Source: Candidatus Firestoneibacteriota bacterium (GTDB taxonomy: Bacteria; Oederibacteriota; D2-FULL-39-29). From it: a DNA stretch of 32,060 bases. Location of the stretch: contig CAITEH010000060.1 in the NCBI GenBank assembly GCA_903891415.1, positions 1 through 32,060 on the forward strand, written 5' to 3'. The notes beneath the pieces were generated by a model. That model did no database searches. It had not been told where the DNA came from and was given only the letters and a program-made list of their open reading frames with translations. A program made the position numbers and the translations under genes. This document shows positions 2,213 to 29,856 of this stretch, in pieces (the stretch's first letter is position 1; each line of letters begins with the position of its first letter).

Positions 2213-4479
2213 CAAGAAAAATATTTTTCCCCGGAAAATACGCCTGTTTATGCGTTGTTTTGTTTGCTTCGGCTTTTTTATATTCCGCTGAAAAAAAAAC
2301 GTATGCGCATTATGAAAAAGCTCTTGAATTATACAACACCCACCAGGTCTGGCTGGGGGCGGTAAACGAAGCGCAGCTGGACCTTAAAGAAAATCCCCGG
2401 CACGTAAAATCCTATATTTTAATAGCACAAATCTACCTCGAAATAAAAGAATATTCCAGGGCCGCGGAAGCAGCGCTTGCTGCCCTGGGCCTTGAGCCCG
2501 GCAATAAAGAAGTTCAAAATTTAATGAACAATATTTTGCATGAGTGGGAGCTAAGCAATACCTACTCGGAAGACCGTGTCTCTTTTAATCTGGAGATCGC
2601 GCGGGTATATTCAAGGCAAAAAGCCTATGGAAAAGCGGTAGAGTATTATCAGAAATACCTGCGGTTTAGGCCGCAGGATCACAAAAGCCGCCTGGAATTT
2701 GCACGGGTCCTTTCCTGGGCAAAATACTATAACTCTTCCATTGAAGAATACCGGAATTATCTGAAAAAATACCCCCAGGATAAAAAGGTTGCTTTAGAAC
2801 TCGCCTATATATATTACTGGAAGCCTGATATTAATGCGGCCGAAATGCAATTAAAGAGAGTTATCGAACTTGATCCCAAAAACAGCGAAGCGTATCTGCT
2901 CCTGGGTGCTATTTATGAACAAAATGGCGCCTACAAAAAGGCCGCCAAGATATACACCGATGTACTGCAGCTCTCGAAGAACAACAGGCAGGCAAAAGAT
3001 GGCCTGGCCCGCCTTAAGAAAATAGAGGAAAGTTCCGGGGATATGGACACGTTAGAAGGTATGCTTAAGGCAGTCGAGTCAACTAAAAATTACCGCTTAT
3101 ACTTGACTATCGCCAACAATCTGTATTTTGAAGGGATGAAAAAGTCCGCCCGCGGAGGCCCTGAGGATGAGGAAAGCAACAAAGAAGAAGCTTTCAAATA
3201 TTACCAGCTTTACCTGGAAAAATTTCCCGAGGATTACGAGGCAAAAATAAGAGTTGCCGAAATTCTTTCCTGGGAAAAACTTTATGATCAGTCGATTTTC
3301 CTTTACAGGGAATATTTAACCAAATATCCGGAAGAAAATTCAGTCCGGTTGGAAGTGGCAAGAATGCTTCAATGGAAAGGGGATAATGCCGGCGCTTTGG
3401 CGGAACTTACCAAGCTCCAGGCCAGCGACCCTACAAATGCCGATATCTACATGATCCGCGGTAATATTTATGAAGCAGAGGGAGAATCTAAAAAGGCCCT
3501 TGACGATTACCGGCAGGTGGTTGCCTTACCGTATAACCAGTATAACCAGGAAGCCATTGAAAATATCCTTGCTATTGAGAAGTCCCTTAATGTTGAAAGA
3601 AAAGCCATGCCGGAATTATATTTTCTTTATTCGAATCTATACGAAAACACATATGACTATCATAAAACCGGCTTTGACCTGGGCGGCAGGGTCCGGTTTT
3701 TTGACGGCTCGGTAATTGTCTCCGCAGGTGTGAGGCAATTTCAGCTTGTACAGGCAGCCAGTGCCCCTTTGTTATCCAATGAGCTGTACCTGCAGGGGAA
3801 CGGGAACTTTCAGGAAAATTGGCAGTGGTCAGCGGCCTTATCCTTGTTAAGGATATATGATTTTTCCGATCATGGCAGTTTGACCCTGGGCACAGCAGTG
3901 GAGATAGCTCCCTCAACTTCTTTCAAGGCAGATATCAACTTTAATAAAGAGGGGATCTTTGAAATTGACAATCTCAATATGCAAATAGCAGGGCTCACTC
4001 TTACTTTAGATGAGTTTGAATTTGAGATCAATCATAAACTATCCGGAGCGGATGAGCTTAGCGCCGCGCTTAACGAAGGATTTTTTTCTGACGGCAATTC
4101 CAAGGAACAGATCACAGGCGGGTATCTGCATAAGGTTTCCGATACGCCGCTGGTTAAGATCGGCGGAGAGTATCAATATTTGTCCTTCAAACAGGATTCT
4201 ACTTATTACTGGGCGCCGATACCTTATTCGTATATTGCCGCCGTGGCAACCCTGGAAAACAATGATAATGATGTATTTATCTACAGAATGAAGGCGGCAG
4301 TTTGCCGTGTTATTGAAACTCCCGAGGTCGAGATCAATTTTGACGCGGAAGCAACTTACTATTTCTCCAAAAATATTTCTGCGGAAGTATTATTCAGTGT
4401 CGGCCGGGGTACTTCGGATGTAACGAGCTCGACCCTGACAAATATCATGATAGGAGTGACCTACCACTTTGAAAAATAG
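2209..4479 (+). CDS. Outer-membrane exopolysaccharide exporter: periplasmic TPR domain plus C-terminal beta-barrel (PgaA/BcsC-like architecture)
   Basis: 756 residues from a TTG start coupled to the previous stop. A signal peptide spans about residues 8-27 (hydrophobic, ending near SAEKK). Residues 32-470 are TPR-type helical hairpins, for example KAVEYYQKYLRFRPQDHKSR and QSIFLYREYLTKYPEENSVR. From about 475 the sequence changes to alternating beta strands and ends in GVTYHFEK; an aromatic (here F) close to the end is typical of outer-membrane barrels. The order resembles PgaA and BcsC, which guide a nascent polymer through the periplasm and out. The synthase follows with an 11-bp overlap. 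The barrel resembles the YaiO type by eye. No deacetylase (PgaB) is visible, so the polymer is unknown. Confidence 0.75.
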   Translation: MTRKIFFPGKYACLCVVLFASAFLYSAEKKTYAHYEKALELYNTHQVWLGAVNEAQLDLKENPRHVKSYILIAQIYLEIKEYSRAAEAALAALGLEPGNKEVQNLMNNILHEWELSNTYSEDRVSFNLEIARVYSRQKAYGKAVEYYQKYLRFRPQDHKSRLEFARVLSWAKYYNSSIEEYRNYLKKYPQDKKVALELAYIYYWKPDINAAEMQLKRVIELDPKNSEAYLLLGAIYEQNGAYKKAAKIYTDVLQLSKNNRQAKDGLARLKKIEESSGDMDTLEGMLKAVESTKNYRLYLTIANNLYFEGMKKSARGGPEDEESNKEEAFKYYQLYLEKFPEDYEAKIRVAEILSWEKLYDQSIFLYREYLTKYPEENSVRLEVARMLQWKGDNAGALAELTKLQASDPTNADIYMIRGNIYEAEGESKKALDDYRQVVALPYNQYNQEAIENILAIEKSLNVERKAMPELYFLYSNLYENTYDYHKTGFDLGGRVRFFDGSVIVSAGVRQFQLVQAASAPLLSNELYLQGNGNFQENWQWSAALSLLRIYDFSDHGSLTLGTAVEIAPSTSFKADINFNKEGIFEIDNLNMQIAGLTLTLDEFEFEINHKLSGADELSAALNEGFFSDGNSKEQITGGYLHKVSDTPLVKIGGEYQYLSFKQDSTYYWAPIPYSYIAAVATLENNDNDVFIYRMKAAVCRVIETPEVEINFDAEATYYFSKNISAEVLFSVGRGTSDVTSSTLTNIMIGVTYHFEK

Positions 4480-5812
4480 ATTATCTGACATATTCTTTAA
4501 TATTTTTGTTTTTATGCTTGCGCTTATCCCGTTTGTATGGCTGATACTGGCAATGCTGAATATTTATATTCTGAACTTTTCTTTCCGTAAAGGATTTATA
4601 GGCCTGTCTTTTGTTTTGCTTTTCATTTTTCTTTGCATTTTGATCATGAGGTATTTCGGGTTAATTTATTTTTCGTATCTAAATTACACTTTTCACGCCT
4701 CGGATCCGCATAAAGAAAATAAGGAATTCCCGCTCGTTTCCATTCTTTTGCCCGCTTATAATGAAGGAAAAAATATTGAGGAGTCGATAAAATCCCTTTT
4801 AAGCCTTGATTATCCGAAAAAAGAGATCATTGTCGTAAATGACGGTTCCCTGGATGACACCATGGAAAAGGCAAAAAAATATGAAGGCCTCTACCCCAAT
4901 TCAAGAGTAAAAGTGATTTTTCAGGAAAATCAGGGAAAAGCTAAAGCTTTGAATAACGGCCTTAAAAACAGCACAGGGGAATTTATTCTCTGTATTGACG
5001 GGGATTCAATAGTAGAAAAGAACGCGATAAACAAAGCCATTACTCATTTCCGGGAAGAAAAAGTGGGCGCCGTAGCGGGAAACGTTAAAATTATCAATAT
5101 AAATAATACCCTGACGCGGCTTCAATCGCTTGAATATATTGAAGGTTTAAACATGGTAAAACAAAGCCAGGGGTTTTTTAAAGTGGTAAATATTGTACCC
5201 GGCCCTTTCGGCCTTTTCCGCCGTACCGCGATGGAAAGCGTCGGCGGCTATGACAATGACACATTTGCCGAAGATTGCGACATAACTATCAAATTATTGG
5301 ATGCCGACTGGAAAATAGTCTACGAGCCGGAGGCGATCTCCTGGACAGAAGCCCCCGAGAACATGAGGAATCTTTTTGTCCAAAGGTACCGCTGGGGCAG
5401 GGGGATCTTACAGGTCTTGAAAAAGCATAAACGGTCCTTTCTGGGGATTAAAAGAAGAGGAAGCCGGCTTAATGTGGCGACCATCTGGTATATGTTTTTT
5501 GAAGCCATTATCTGGCCTATTATGAATGTGTTTGCCCAGGTATTCTTCTTGTATGTGGCCTTGACCTCGGGAATGCTGAGCAGCCTGCTCTTCTGGTGGA
5601 TCCAGCTTACACTGCTGGATATGACTGCGGCGCTGCATTGCGTGTTAATAGAAAAAGAAAGGTTGAGCTATGTCCTTTACTCGATACCTTACCGGCTTTA
5701 TTTTATTCTTACAATTGATGTAGTTAAACTGCTGGCCACTTTAGAAGAAGTGCTGGGGGCAAAAATGGCCTGGGGCAGGGTGGAAAGAAAAGGCCGGTTG
5801 ACAAAAACCTAG
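4469..5812 (+). CDS. Processive family 2 glycosyltransferase, membrane polysaccharide synthase (PgaC/BcsA-like)
   Basis: 447 residues from a TTG start inside the previous gene. Two N-terminal membrane helices (about 8-36 and 44-70) precede a GT-A domain with all four processive-synthase signatures: NDGS (Asp125), DGDS (177-180), the catalytic base region FAEDCD (Asp269) and QRYRW (305-309). Two or three further helices follow (about 340-435). Such enzymes polymerise a UDP-sugar on the cytoplasmic face and thread the chain through the inner membrane. The best-known relatives make poly-beta-1,6-GlcNAc, cellulose or hyaluronan; the substrate cannot be fixed from sequence alone. The co-encoded TPR/barrel protein would be the outer-membrane exit. 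Confidence 0.85.
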   Translation: MKNRLSDIFFNIFVFMLALIPFVWLILAMLNIYILNFSFRKGFIGLSFVLLFIFLCILIMRYFGLIYFSYLNYTFHASDPHKENKEFPLVSILLPAYNEGKNIEESIKSLLSLDYPKKEIIVVNDGSLDDTMEKAKKYEGLYPNSRVKVIFQENQGKAKALNNGLKNSTGEFILCIDGDSIVEKNAINKAITHFREEKVGAVAGNVKIININNTLTRLQSLEYIEGLNMVKQSQGFFKVVNIVPGPFGLFRRTAMESVGGYDNDTFAEDCDITIKLLDADWKIVYEPEAISWTEAPENMRNLFVQRYRWGRGILQVLKKHKRSFLGIKRRGSRLNVATIWYMFFEAIIWPIMNVFAQVFFLYVALTSGMLSSLLFWWIQLTLLDMTAALHCVLIEKERLSYVLYSIPYRLYFILTIDVVKLLATLEEVLGAKMAWGRVERKGRLTKT

Positions 5813-5957
5813 GAACGCGGCTAGTTTATAAATAATACTTTTTATCTGCCTGCAAAAAGTTCTTTCCAATAAGGCCTTAGCAGAATATTTAAGGCCCTCA
5901 TGCAAGAACAAATAGTAGTTATAAGTTAAAATAGATCCCTGCAAAAGAAGGTGCAAA

Positions 5958-8309
5958 ATGAAAGGAACTTTGATGACGAAGTTTGAAAAATTTTCCGCTT
6001 TTTTCAGTTTAGCCGCTACTTTAATAGGTGTTATGGTCATATTAAGAACGTCAGCCGGCTGGGAATTACCCGCAGGCCTCCTGCCGAATTACAGGTCCAT
6101 GTCCCTGCTGTCCGCGGTGTCCCTCTCTATTTTTGGCATCATACTTTTTTTATTGGCCAATAAAAGAGTCTCCGAAAAAATGCATTATATTATTTCCGGG
6201 CTATTATTCCTGGTAATGCTCATCGGTGCCGGTATCTGTTCCGGTATGATCGTAAAAATAATCCCCTCACTGGGAAGGGTCTCCCCCTATCTCGGGTTTG
6301 TTTATCTGTTCTATTCCCTGGCGCTTTTATTGAAAAATGTGTACGGGGAAAAAGTTATTATCAACAGTTTTGCGAGTATAACGGGTGTGTTTGTGGCTTT
6401 TTTTGGTTTTGCTATCATTCTCGGATACCTTTTTAATTCACCGTTATTTTTCAGCGGCTGGAGTCTGCCTTTTTCTTTTAATGGCGGAGTTTGCGCTTTG
6501 CTTCTGGGGCTGGGCCTGGTCTCCCTGTGCGGGGACAGGACCGCTATACTCGGGCCTTTGTCGGGTAATAACGTAAGCGCGAAAATTCACAGATTGATCG
6601 TGCCTTTTACTATCTTTTGTGTCGTTATACAGAGCATGTTGTTTTTGATCATAAATAATATTAAAAATATAAACTTCGCGTTATTTGCCGGATTTGAAGT
6701 TGTTCTTTTTGTATTAATAGCCCTCTTTTCCGCGCTTGGTGCCACTAAAAAGATCTTTTCTGATGCCGAAAAAGCTGAAGAAGAGCGGGAAAAAGCCCTG
6801 GGCATTATGCATAAAACTGAAGAAAAATATTTAAAGATACTGGAAGCCAGCCCTTTATTGATAACTATTACCCGGTTAAAGGATAAATGTGTAATAGAAG
6901 CGAACGAGACCGCTATAAAAAAGCTGGGGGGCAATATTATAGGCTGCCCGCTGCCGTACTTTGAGGAGCGTGCGGAGCCGGAGCGGGAACTTAAACAAAC
7001 GCAAAAAACCGGGACTGCTTACCGGGGGGAATGCAGTTATAAAAACAAAAACGGCAAAGAAATTATCTTAACACAAACCCACCAGATCATTGAGATAGAA
7101 AATGAAAAATGCGTCCTGACTATATCGGAAGATATTACCGAACAACGGCAGATGGAACAACAACTGCTTCAAACAAGAAAGATGGACGCTCTTGGTACGC
7201 TGACCGCGGGGATCGCGCATGATTTTAACAATATGCTGTCCGTTATAATAGGTTATTCGGACAGCACTTTAAGGTTTACGCCGCAGGAACCCAAAGTAAA
7301 TGAAAACATCCAGCAGATCAAGAAAGCAGCCGTAAAAGCGGCAGCCTTAACGTCCCAATTACTGGCTTTCAGCAGAAAACAGCCCCGCGAACTGATGGTT
7401 ATAGCGCTTAATAATTCACTGGTAGAGCTCAAGAGCATGCTTGAACGTATTATTGGGGAAGATATTGAATTTGAACTTCACTTAGAGCCTGCCCTCAAAA
7501 ATATTTTGTTTGACAAAAATCAGATCGACCGGATAGTGGTCAATCTGGTGACGAATTCAAAGCATGCCATGCCGAAAGGCGGAAAACTGGCTATAAAAAC
7601 GGAAAATGTCACGTTGAATAAAGAGACGGCCCGGAATATACCGTATTCAAGAGCCGGAGAATTCATCTGCATGTCCGTTGCGGATACGGGTATTGGAATA
7701 GGTTCAGAACAGATGGAACATTTGTTTGAGCCTTTTTATACGACAAAATCCCAGAATAAGGGCTCGGGACTCGGCTTGTGCGTGGTTTACGGAATAGTTA
7801 AACAACAGGAAGGCTGGATAAATGTTACAAGCGCGCCGGGTAAAGGCGCAGAATTCAAAGTATTTTTGCCTGTTTATAAAGGCAATAAGGAAGTAGAAAC
7901 TATGAAAGAAGAATTTTCGGGAGAACTTGAATACAGTGAAGGAAAAAGGATACTTGTAGTCGAAGATGATGAAGCAGTCTTGGATATGGTAAGCGGCTTT
8001 TTGAAAGAAAAAAAACATGAGGTGTTCCGGGCAGCAAACGGTAAAGAAGCGCTGAAAATATTTGAAGCGGAAAAAGGCAGAATTGACCTGCTTTTTAGCG
8101 ACTCCGTCATGCCGGAGATAAGCGGCCTTGAATTGGCCAGGAAACTCAAGGCCATGAACCCGAAAATAAAGGTAATAATAAGCAGCGGTTACCTTGATGA
8201 TAAAAATAACATAGATGAAGTTAAAAGAGAAGGCTGCCTTTTTTTACCCAAACCTTACGTGGTAAAAGAACTATTTTCAATAATTGCACTTGTATTTAAA
8301 GAAAAATAA
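5958..8309 (+). CDS. Hybrid sensor histidine kinase: membrane domain, PAS, HisKA, HATPase, receiver
   Basis: 783 residues. The start ATG (5958) has AAGG upstream; an internal ATG at residue 6 is an alternative. Residues about 12-260 contain roughly eight hydrophobic helices with short loops, an MHYT/MASE-like membrane sensor that I cannot name. A short coiled coil and a PAS domain (about 285-400) follow. HisKA contains GIAHDFNN with His421, and the ATPase has an N box (NLVTNSKHAMP), G1 (DTGIGI), F box (FEPFYTTK) and G2 (GSGLGL). The receiver (about 655-783) is intact: VEDDE acidic pair, phospho-acceptor Asp715 (LLFSDSVMP) and Lys765 (LPKP). A near-copy without the membrane part follows 154 bp downstream. 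Confidence 0.92.
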   Translation: MKGTLMTKFEKFSAFFSLAATLIGVMVILRTSAGWELPAGLLPNYRSMSLLSAVSLSIFGIILFLLANKRVSEKMHYIISGLLFLVMLIGAGICSGMIVKIIPSLGRVSPYLGFVYLFYSLALLLKNVYGEKVIINSFASITGVFVAFFGFAIILGYLFNSPLFFSGWSLPFSFNGGVCALLLGLGLVSLCGDRTAILGPLSGNNVSAKIHRLIVPFTIFCVVIQSMLFLIINNIKNINFALFAGFEVVLFVLIALFSALGATKKIFSDAEKAEEEREKALGIMHKTEEKYLKILEASPLLITITRLKDKCVIEANETAIKKLGGNIIGCPLPYFEERAEPERELKQTQKTGTAYRGECSYKNKNGKEIILTQTHQIIEIENEKCVLTISEDITEQRQMEQQLLQTRKMDALGTLTAGIAHDFNNMLSVIIGYSDSTLRFTPQEPKVNENIQQIKKAAVKAAALTSQLLAFSRKQPRELMVIALNNSLVELKSMLERIIGEDIEFELHLEPALKNILFDKNQIDRIVVNLVTNSKHAMPKGGKLAIKTENVTLNKETARNIPYSRAGEFICMSVADTGIGIGSEQMEHLFEPFYTTKSQNKGSGLGLCVVYGIVKQQEGWINVTSAPGKGAEFKVFLPVYKGNKEVETMKEEFSGELEYSEGKRILVVEDDEAVLDMVSGFLKEKKHEVFRAANGKEALKIFEAEKGRIDLLFSDSVMPEISGLELARKLKAMNPKIKVIISSGYLDDKNNIDEVKREGCLFLPKPYVVKELFSIIALVFKEK

Positions 8310-27303: not shown

Positions 27304-27426
27304 GCAGAAATTCCTCAAGAAGATAGAAGCAAATGATATTAGAACTGTAGTTGCTTGATTCATCAAGCATTTTTGGCCTCATAAATGAGGCAACTACAAA
27401 AATTGTCCAAGACGAGGAATTTCTGC
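27304..27426. repeat. Nested palindrome forming a three-way junction (REP-like element)
   Basis: Outer arms GCAGAAATTCCTC (27304-27316) and GAGGAATTTCTGC (27414-27426) are perfect 13-bp inverses. Inside, TGTAGTTGC (27346-27354) pairs with GCAACTACA (27390-27398), enclosing two adjacent hairpins: TGCTTGA-TTCA-TCAAGCA (27352-27369) and GCCTCAT-AA-ATGAGGC (27376-27391). The inner 53 bp has the form of a REP sequence used by Y1-type transposases. It starts directly after the DUF192 stop and may also end that transcript. Confidence 0.9.
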
Positions 27427-27442: not shown

Positions 27443-27471
27443 TTGACAAAACTTTTATAAAAAGGTACCAT
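27443..27471 (+). promoter_or_regulatory. Sigma70-type promoter of the ExbB-ExbD-SIMPL operon
   Basis: Perfect TTGACA (27443-27448), 17-nt spacer, TACCAT (27466-27471; 4/6). The ATG at 27537 lies about 60 nt beyond the expected start. Confidence 0.7.
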
Positions 27472-27536: not shown

Positions 27537-28235
27537 ATGCCGGAAAATTTAGGTTTATTCCAGTCGTTGTTCAAGAACTACTGGGCGCTTCTCACCATAC
27601 TGGTACTGGTCGCGGTCTCTTTCGTGTCGATCTACCATATTGTCGAGAGATATCTGAGGTTTAAAGCCGCCAAAGTGGATACTAATGAGTTCCTTGAAAA
27701 ATTAAAACGGGTCCTGCGTAAAGACGGAAAATTTGACAGCTCCGGGGTCTCCAGGGCGCTGGATCTATGCCAGGATTTTGAAGGCCCGGTGTCCTTTGTT
27801 GTAAAAGCGGCTTTGATCAGATTTCCTTCCACAAAAGAAGAGCTCGAAGAAGCTATGAAAAAAACCGCGATCAGGGAAATCTCCAAACTGGAAAAAAATC
27901 TTGTAGTTATCGGGACCATAGGCAATGTAGCGCCTTTCATTGGCTTGCTCGGGACCGTCATTGGTGTTACCGAGTCTTTTTCTTTGATAAACAACATGGG
28001 AGGGACCGGCGGTATCGGTGTTGTCGGGCCCGGGATCGCGCAAGCTTTGATCGCCACGATTGTCGGGCTTTTTGTCGCTATCCCTTCGGTTGCGGCCTAT
28101 AATTATTTTGTCAGAAAAGTTGACGAATTAAACACGGATATTACGCTCGCGGGCATGGAGACGGTAAATCTTCTTACCGCAAAAGATGTTGACCGCGATA
28201 AATGGGATGAGATGAATAAAGAGTCAAGGGGGTAG
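27537..28235 (+). CDS. MotA/TolQ/ExbB family proton-channel protein
   Basis: 232 residues, ATG behind GGGGG. Three membrane helices in the family order: one at about 16-35, then a cytoplasmic segment (about 40-125), then two close helices at about 126-150 and 163-190. The conserved stretch GPGIAQALIATIVGLFVAIPSV is the TolQ/ExbB signature, and GNVAPFIGLLGTVIGV is the second-helix consensus. It should form the pentameric stator that converts proton flow into movement of an ExbD/TolR dimer. Five bases separate it from the ExbD gene. The third protein of the operon replaces TonB or TolA. Confidence 0.93.
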   Translation: MPENLGLFQSLFKNYWALLTILVLVAVSFVSIYHIVERYLRFKAAKVDTNEFLEKLKRVLRKDGKFDSSGVSRALDLCQDFEGPVSFVVKAALIRFPSTKEELEEAMKKTAIREISKLEKNLVVIGTIGNVAPFIGLLGTVIGVTESFSLINNMGGTGGIGVVGPGIAQALIATIVGLFVAIPSVAAYNYFVRKVDELNTDITLAGMETVNLLTAKDVDRDKWDEMNKESRG

Positions 28236-28239
28236 AGCC

Positions 28240-28665
28240 GTGTTCAGCCTGAATACAAAAAAAGCAAAACTTTTTTCAGAAATTAATATTACTCCGCTTA
28301 CCGATGTGGCGCTGGTACTGCTCATAATATTTATGATAACGGCGCCTATGTTGATCCAGTCAGGCATAAACGTTAAACTGCCGGGCTCTGTTTCCAATGA
28401 TGTTACGCCTGAAAAAAATATCATATTGAATATCACAGCGGACGGCAAGGTCTATCTGGGCAATCAGGAAATTTCTCTCAAAGATCTTTCCCTGCCCCTG
28501 GCGGCGTTACTTGCCGTAAGCCAGAATAAAATAGTTATTATTAATGCCGATACCTCCGTTAAGCACGGTATTGTTATCTCTGTAATGGACCTGGCAAGAC
28601 AGGCCGGTGCGGTTAAACTCTTTGAATCCACGGAACATACACCGCAGCCGGATTGGAAAAAGTAG
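28240..28665 (+). CDS. ExbD/TolR family protein
   Basis: 141 residues from a GTG start behind AAGGGGG. One membrane helix (about 20-42) begins with EINITPLTDVALVLLIIFMITAP, which carries the essential proton-carrying Asp (LTDV) of ExbD/TolR. The periplasmic domain (about 50-135) ends with the family KHGIVISVMDLARQAGA helix. It is the partner of the upstream ExbB-like channel. Confidence 0.94.
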   Translation: MFSLNTKKAKLFSEINITPLTDVALVLLIIFMITAPMLIQSGINVKLPGSVSNDVTPEKNIILNITADGKVYLGNQEISLKDLSLPLAALLAVSQNKIVIINADTSVKHGIVISVMDLARQAGAVKLFESTEHTPQPDWKK

Positions 28666-28710
28666 CCGGTTATTGATCTTTATTAAGAAAAGGAGTTCAT
28701 AGAAAATATT

Positions 28711-29856
28711 ATGGCCCTGGATAGGATAGAAAAAATATCGCTTGCCGTAAGTTTTGCCGAGCATCTGGTGCTTTTTTGCATTGTTGCCCTTATTATTTCT
28801 ATTCCGGCGGTCAAGTATATTCCTATGATAGAAGTAAATATGTTAAACAATGTTTCCTTTAAAGACCTTTTGAAGGCCCCGGTGGATACTTCAGGAAACA
28901 GTACAAATAATGCAGGCACCCCAAATGTAGCTCAACCCGGTAACTCGAAACTGGCGCCCTCGGAAGTGGGAACCACACAGGAAGGCAGTCTTTCTTCTAC
29001 GCTGGATATGGTAGGTTCGGGAATTGCCGAGAATGTAAAGTTTTCCGGCGGGAAGGTTGCCGGCTTTTCCTTTACCGGCACCGGCATCGTGACCGCCAAG
29101 CCGGACAACGTCTTTGTTCAGTTTTCCGTAAAATCAGGGCCGCAGAACTCCCTCCGGTCAGCAGAAACCGCGGTTGCTCAAAAAGTAGACTGGATGATAT
29201 ATAATATTGGCCGTCTTTTCAGGATAAAAAAGGAAAATTTCAAAGTTTATGGTTTTCAGCCGGAACTGGTAAAGCAGACTATGAAACAAAACAGATCTCT
29301 TACCCAGAAAGATGAATACGGCAATGTTATAGAAAAGGTAGAATTTAAGTATAATTCCAAAAAGTATGTGGTGGTGGGGGATCTGGGCAGCAAATCCTTC
29401 GTGGAAATATGCGAGATGCTTGATAAAGCAGTAGACTATGGCGGTATTGCCGTCGCAGAAATTCCCAAATTGAATAATGAGGTGGCCTCCGCTACCGCCG
29501 AAGGCAAGGCCGATTCCCGGTTAAAGGCCGTGAAGGGCGCAACAAAACTTAAGTTTGCGGCAACCACCCAAAATCCCGATAACCAGCTTATAAATTATCA
29601 CTTTAACGAAGCAACTCTGGAAAAACTGATGAAAACCGCAAAAGACCAGGCCTATAAAGAAGCCAAAGACAAAGTGGACAAGATCAAAGCAGTACTTAAA
29701 TTCAAAGAAAATGAAATGGACATTATTTTTGCCGAAAGTACAACTGCTGCTTCTGACGAAGAAGGTGCTGTTACCATAAAAACAGATGTAACTGCCACGC
29801 TGAGCAAACCTAATTCCGCGGCCAACCAGGCTCAACCTGTCAATACTCCTCAATGA
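28711..29856 (+). CDS. TonB-position membrane-anchored SIMPL (DUF541) protein
   Basis: 381 residues. An AGGAG lies 16 bp before the ATG, rather far. Residues 6-34 (RIEKISLAVSFAEHLVLFCI and on to ISIP) form a single N-terminal membrane helix, as in TonB/TolA. A Ser/Asn/Pro/Gly-rich linker (about 55-115) crosses into the periplasm. Instead of a TonB or TolA end domain, residues about 119-360 form a SIMPL/DUF541 domain: FTGTGIVTAKPDNVFVQFSV at its start and KVDKIKAVLKFKENEMDIIF near its end. SIMPL proteins (for example BP26, YggE) are periplasmic oligomers. A motor-coupled SIMPL protein is not a standard arrangement. Position and anchor make it the likely output of the ExbB-ExbD motor. Confidence 0.75.
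   Translation: MALDRIEKISLAVSFAEHLVLFCIVALIISIPAVKYIPMIEVNMLNNVSFKDLLKAPVDTSGNSTNNAGTPNVAQPGNSKLAPSEVGTTQEGSLSSTLDMVGSGIAENVKFSGGKVAGFSFTGTGIVTAKPDNVFVQFSVKSGPQNSLRSAETAVAQKVDWMIYNIGRLFRIKKENFKVYGFQPELVKQTMKQNRSLTQKDEYGNVIEKVEFKYNSKKYVVVGDLGSKSFVEICEMLDKAVDYGGIAVAEIPKLNNEVASATAEGKADSRLKAVKGATKLKFAATTQNPDNQLINYHFNEATLEKLMKTAKDQAYKEAKDKVDKIKAVLKFKENEMDIIFAESTTAASDEEGAVTIKTDVTATLSKPNSAANQAQPVNTPQ

Follow-up and report, generated by a model that had tools for sequence, protein, structure and literature searches.

An ExbB-ExbD motor encoded with a SIMPL-headed, TonB-type anchored protein in the order Candidatus Firestonebacteria

Results

The ExbB-ExbD-SIMPL locus

The window, i.e. the whole stretch of DNA analysed (32,060 nucleotides), is an entire contig of a metagenome-assembled genome (G000:C60), and holds ExbB, ExbD and SIMPL-headed genes arranged head to tail (Table 1). 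The three open reading frames listed by an earlier sequence-only reading of this DNA were found at the positions and on the strand it gave. The exbB and exbD genes are separated by a gap of 4 bases, and a nitroreductase gene starts 15 bases after the SIMPL-headed gene. Upstream of exbB, both a terminator-like hairpin and a promoter-like element could be recognised by consensus match, with the number of terminator-like sites in the region not above that of shuffled sequences. The gene directly upstream of exbB, across the order, encodes a DUF192 protein (PF02643; 26827-27303 in the window) with an N-terminal hydrophobic segment.

Table 1 Features of the window locus and of the second trio found in genome G004. 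Positions are those of the window, except for L057.
Feature	Position	Strand	Basis
Terminator-like hairpin and T run, between DUF192 gene and exbB	27352..27369	+	Consensus match only
Promoter-like TTGACA-17-TACCAT upstream of exbB	27443..27471	+	Consensus match only
ExbB/TolQ-type motor subunit, 232 aa	27537..28235	+	Pfam MotA_ExbB 2.2e-32
ExbD/TolR-type motor subunit, 141 aa, GTG start	28240..28665	+	Pfam ExbD 4.3e-29
SIMPL-headed, TonB-type anchored protein, 381 aa	28711..29856	+	Anchor residues, orthologues, structure matches
Membrane helix, residues 3-30	28717..28800	+	Predicted model
Ser14; His18	28750-28752; 28762-28764	+	Only invariant pair in anchor alignment
Flexible low-complexity periplasmic linker, residues 31-106, including the D-box-like strand	28801..29028	+	pLDDT, composition
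D-box-like strand IEVNMLN, residues 40-46	28828..28848	+	Resemblance only
SIMPL (DUF541) head, residues 107-367	29029..29811	+	Foldseek; Pfam top match, below cut-off
Second trio, ExbB (L057, G004:C71)	5560-6192	-	Separate contig
Second trio, ExbD (L057, G004:C71)	5148-5555	-	Separate contig
Second trio, arm (L057, G004:C71)	3862-5145	-	Separate contig

The motor subunits score 111.9 bits (ExbB against PF01618, cut-off 22.9) and 101.6 bits (ExbD against PF02472, cut-off 25.4). The pore threonines T140 and T174 are retained in the alignment of the window ExbB, which also keeps TM3 Pro183 (TolQ Pro187) and TM1 Ser28 (TolQ Ser28), while the proton-binding Asp22 of the window ExbD sits in NITPLTDVALVLLIIFM. 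The docking contact Trp32 of TolQ corresponds to Ile in the window ExbB, and a residue other than Trp is also present in the TonB-linked ExbBs of these genomes. The best PDB matches were TolQ for ExbB (2.8e-21) and ExbD for ExbD (1.5e-18). NCBIfam ranks tolQ/tolR first, below cut-off; since it does so for the TonB-linked motors of these genomes as well, with similar scores that are all below cut-off, typing of the motor on this basis was abandoned. Zorya defence was considered and dismissed, as ExbB gave a weak ZorA match only, and neither ExbD nor the SIMPL-headed protein gave any.

The third protein carries a SIMPL head

The sequence-only reading had assigned the output domain of the third protein to SIMPL (DUF541). 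This proved right: the assignment is weak by sequence, with PF04402 the top Pfam match of the window protein at 0.019 and 15.6 bits (cut-off 25.2), and it is supported by the fold. Several homologues likewise have SIMPL as their top yet sub-cut-off match, with the best orthologue reaching 1.3e-4 and orthologue L021 scoring 22.7 bits. When the full predicted model was compared with the PDB, a Campylobacter jejuni SIMPL-like protein (7c50, 1.3e-8) and Brucella BP26 (4hvz, 3.9e-7) were retrieved. A Foldseek search with the head alone gave the same two entries at 6.2e-9 and 2.8e-8 respectively, with a probability of 1.00 and TM-scores to the target of 0.67 and 0.53. For both the whole model and the head, these were the two best and the sole PDB matches below 0.001. 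Although model confidence is modest (mean pLDDT 61 and 66, pTM 0.42 and 0.50 for the whole protein and the head alone), the predicted fold matches SIMPL structures specifically. It is the predicted structure that settles the identity of the head as SIMPL.

The window protein has no match to TonB_C, TonB_2 or TolA in Pfam or NCBIfam, nor to vWA in Pfam at E 10. As judged from sequence, it would work like a TonB arm, yet is not classed as TonB or TolA. A PF04402 search of the window's own genome returned nothing at 1e-3. Orthologue profiles and fold were used in what follows, because plain PF04402 co-occurrence misses the anchored SIMPL family. To our knowledge, SIMPL (DUF541) proteins are widespread and have no known cellular function.

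A TonB-type anchor with an invariant Ser-x3-His pair

The anchored SIMPL protein consists of a short cytoplasmic end, one helix and a linker, followed by the folded head, so that all elements of the TonB layout claimed by the sequence-only reading were recovered. Among eight complete orthologues with identities down to 38%, Ser14 and His18 are the sole invariant residues between positions 3 and 39. The Ser-x3-His spacing equals that of TonB Ser16/His20 and TolA Ser18/His22, residues which contact ExbB/TolQ in cryo-EM structures and of which the His is essential (PMC12215075). The motif was found in 10/10 anchored SIMPL proteins, in contrast to none of the eight secreted SIMPL paralogues, and the anchor thus bears the Ser/His face that had been proposed as a check on ExbB contact. 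It also occurs in every canonical TonB examined in these genomes. Among the remaining hydrophobic N-termini of the retrieved loci, approximately 4% have it, a background count that leaves out the TonB, SIMPL and FAD-protein families. The second half of the SHLS motif (Leu and Ser at +7 and +11 from the His) is absent, with V25 and I29 at these positions in the window protein; this half is reportedly not well conserved in Ton systems either (PMC12215075).

The E. coli TonB D-box (45-ISVTMVT-51) binds the ExbD dimer (PMC12215075). The IEVNMLN strand following the helix of the window protein resembles it in place and pattern, and is a putative D-box on the grounds of this resemblance. The linker comprises approximately 75 residues of low-complexity Ser/Asn/Gly/Pro/Thr sequence, with pLDDT values below 50 over residues 32-102.

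Conservation of the trio and a dedicated motor lineage

Each of the nine genomes sampled from the order Candidatus Firestonebacteria (G000-G008) contains the ExbB-ExbD-SIMPL trio, the SIMPL-headed gene of G008 being split over two contigs. The gene order DUF192-ExbB-ExbD-SIMPL-nitroreductase-FAD oxidoreductase is kept across the genomes of the order. Because the trio occurs in all nine genomes, it is not a chance arrangement.

A second, very divergent trio was found on a separate contig of G004 (Table 1), so that the recurrence on which the sequence-only reading had staked itself is seen both between genomes and within one. At 1.6e-8 and 35.5 bits, the SIMPL match of the second arm lies above the Pfam cut-off; the arm contains Ser-x3-His, with VEVSL after the helix. 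The anchored SIMPL heads of the first and second trio showed no significant similarity when their profiles were compared, and we therefore do not claim a common origin for them. Two secreted SIMPL-like paralogues adjoin the second trio in the same operon (L057 1510-6192, minus strand). The next open reading frame of this contig (6370-7329) is partly masked, and its start resembles a TonB-dependent receptor or a carboxypeptidase-regulatory-like protein.

In the ExbD tree, all ten SIMPL-linked ExbDs, including that of the second G004 trio, form one clade (support 97/97), which lies apart from the TonB-linked (92/91) and tandem ExbDs; the exact place of the second G004 ExbD is unsure owing to its long branch. 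The SIMPL-linked ExbBs keep the TM3 proline (TolQ Pro187 / ExbB Pro190), unlike the TonB-linked ExbBs of the order (L047, L051, L161, L163, L165, L166 and L168-L170), where it is lost to Gly, Ser, Thr or Ile.

Most genomes of the order also encode a secreted SIMPL paralogue, which has no anchor and lies away from any ExbB/ExbD. This paralogue went undetected in two of the nine genomes (G005 and G006, one of which is 98% complete). We set it aside as an obligate partner of the anchored protein, since its absence from detection in these two genomes indicates that it is not a necessary one.

The search was extended beyond the order. Of 100 regions surrounding SIMPL matches of other families, L082 alone had ExbB/ExbD, and in the remaining loci (~99) no true SIMPL gene adjoined ExbB/ExbD. 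The L082 'SIMPL' protein, from another phylum, turned out to be a TPR protein whose SIMPL match is spurious. At L087, from another phylum, a TonB-like protein located ~3.5 kb from a SIMPL gene proved an ordinary-looking TonB, with no trio. Across 45 genomes of the phylum, inspection by eye found no SIMPL match on a contig with ExbD outside the order, among the matches listed. The trio thus seems confined to Candidatus Firestonebacteria within the sample; as some 400 of ~98,000 genomes were searched, rare trios may exist elsewhere.

TonB and Tol-Pal in the same genomes

Every genome has a further ExbB-ExbD-TonB set (C5 type), and in some an additional motor has two ExbDs and is accompanied by a longer TonB. 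A third type, an orphan TonB, is a short TonB_C protein encoded next to a BtuB-like receptor and cob genes in a cobalamin operon, without ExbB/ExbD wherever seen (L050 5478-8061 on G000:C24, L052, L054, L056 and L171-L174). The sequence-only reading had held that a separate TonB or TolA gene pairing with the window motor would count against it. Separate TonBs do exist; two of the three types come with their own ExbB/ExbD and leave the claim standing, while the orphan TonB keeps the objection partly alive, as it might use either the SIMPL-linked or the TonB-linked motor, between which sequence does not discriminate.

Neither an OmpA-domain protein nor, by extension, Pal was detected in seven of the nine genomes (G000, G001, G003 and G005-G008), a lack that is uncommon among bacteria with two membranes. 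G002 and G004 each contain eight OmpA-domain matches, at least one of which is MotB-like and lies beside a MotA-like gene. Matches to TolB_N were set aside as candidates for TolB, those examined looking CsgG/FlgO-like by sequence. With no Pal detected in seven of the nine genomes and the examined TolB_N matches unlike TolB, the lineage appears to be mostly without a recognisable Tol-Pal system. SIMPL trios are also present in both genomes with OmpA-domain proteins, and mutual replacement of Tol-Pal and SIMPL is for this reason not established.

Discussion

A probable motor with its own SIMPL-headed arm

We consider it probable that the locus encodes a proton-driven 5:2 motor with its own force-transducing arm, headed by SIMPL in place of the TonB or TolA C-terminal domain. 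The observed gene set, head fold, docking residues, dedicated motor lineage and conservation form the basis of this reading, from which we infer a physical complex between motor and arm, and force acting on the SIMPL head. As the motor-docking parts are the same and the arm end is different, these bacteria probably apply cell-membrane energy to a novel target. In such a system, an ExbB5-ExbD2 inner-membrane motor would be driven by proton flow, with the arm docking on the side of ExbB via its Ser-x3-His helix (Ser14/His18) and the D-box-like strand joining the periplasmic dimer of ExbD. The flexible linker would span part of the periplasm, so that the SIMPL head could work at a distance from the inner membrane and grip an envelope partner; proton flow would turn ExbD, thereby pulling or releasing the head.

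What the head might hold, and to what end, is a tentative guess. The likeliest classes of partner would be another SIMPL protein, or a component of the outer membrane or cell wall, and the role could be one of envelope maintenance, more akin to that of Tol than to the uptake of nutrients. Because BP26 forms a hexadecameric barrel (PMC6884894), a SIMPL assembly suggests itself as the partner. More speculative, and in our view rather doubtful, is the proposal that SIMPL-headed arms form a separate class of periplasmic force transducer, in which the motor pulls on SIMPL oligomers, or reshapes them, at the wall or outer membrane, and that it does the work of Tol-Pal in these bacteria, most of whose genomes lack OmpA-domain (Pal-type) proteins.

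Three other readings of the gene set were weighed. The motor could mainly serve the orphan TonB, with the SIMPL protein an occasional user of the dock or a by-stander. The orphan also bears Ser-x3-His and sits beside a receptor and cob genes with no ExbB/ExbD of its own, and cross-complementation between Ton and Tol motors is possible (PMC12215075). However, the C5-type TonB-linked ExbB/ExbD present in every genome could equally be used by the orphan, and the motor keeps company with the SIMPL gene rather than with the orphan TonB, its lineage tracking SIMPL in the second trio as well. Motor sharing moreover leaves the invariant dock on the SIMPL protein unexplained, and we regard it as unlikely.

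That the SIMPL protein binds the motor through its TonB-like helix and acts as a gate or scaffold, transmitting no force, appears quite improbable: the motor is encoded with no other arm, and the SIMPL protein has the anchor, D-box-like strand, linker and place in the gene order that are typical of an arm. This is despite the head having no assigned function and despite the existence of accessory proteins in some Ton systems, of which TtpC of Vibrio is an example. The housekeeping genes of the flanking block (acc, efp and so on) are conserved as a whole, such that neighbours stay together for other reasons, and an anchored SIMPL protein could merely happen to share an ExbB/ExbD operon. Such coincidence is scarcely credible given that Ser-x3-His is invariant in the anchored and absent from the secreted SIMPL paralogues, and that a separately placed, very divergent ExbB-ExbD-SIMPL trio exists in G004.

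Relation to known systems

The proposed motor and SIMPL arm resemble ExbB-ExbD-TonB and TolQ-TolR-TolA in having all pore residues, a single-helix arm with Ser-x3-His, a putative D-box-like strand after the helix, a low-complexity linker and a motor-motor-arm gene order. They differ in the SIMPL head, and in a cluster that contains no TonB-dependent receptor, TolB or Pal. The head has the fold of YggE, BP26 (4HVZ) and the C. jejuni protein (7C50), but is very divergent, with 12-13% identity to the solved SIMPL structures. Sampled SIMPL/DUF541 proteins are mostly free-standing, with a length of ~230-290 aa and no motor, whereas in the window protein the domain is joined to a TonB-type anchor and linker.

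The claim of the sequence-only reading that this would be a new type of energy-transduction system was overstated. Inner-membrane-anchored transducers with a vWA head, an SHLS helix, a motor box and a disordered linker of ~100 residues were reported in 2025 (Williams-Jones et al. 2025, PMC12204202); with SIMPL, this established plan gains a new head, and no new category arises. The two share this plan, a head other than TonB and adjoining motor genes; vWA-headed clusters often include a TPR gene and paired tolR-like genes, whereas in the SIMPL cluster ExbD is single and a TPR gene is lacking. SIMPL is absent from the main text of the vWA study (PMC12204202), and none of the open-licence papers searched joins 'SIMPL domain' with ExbB, or PF04402 with TonB. 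The trio is a second, independent case, after vWA, of a putative TonB-type arm with an unrelated head. Since vWA and SIMPL heads share one plan, motor and anchor look like a reusable module, with the head deciding the job. With a SIMPL domain as the output of a putative proton-driven arm, it seems that at least some SIMPL domains bear load as grips on the envelope, an idea that is testable.

Further motor clusters were seen in the order. At L047 (1501-4813) and L051 (2138-5332), the gene after the TonB motor encodes a lipoprotein-like product. In L047 this has SpoIID and TPR domains, a hint of some wall-related role. L055 (4642-9137, on G002:C45) is an AglQRS-like cluster consisting of an ExbB-like protein, two ExbD-like proteins and a long TPR-like protein.
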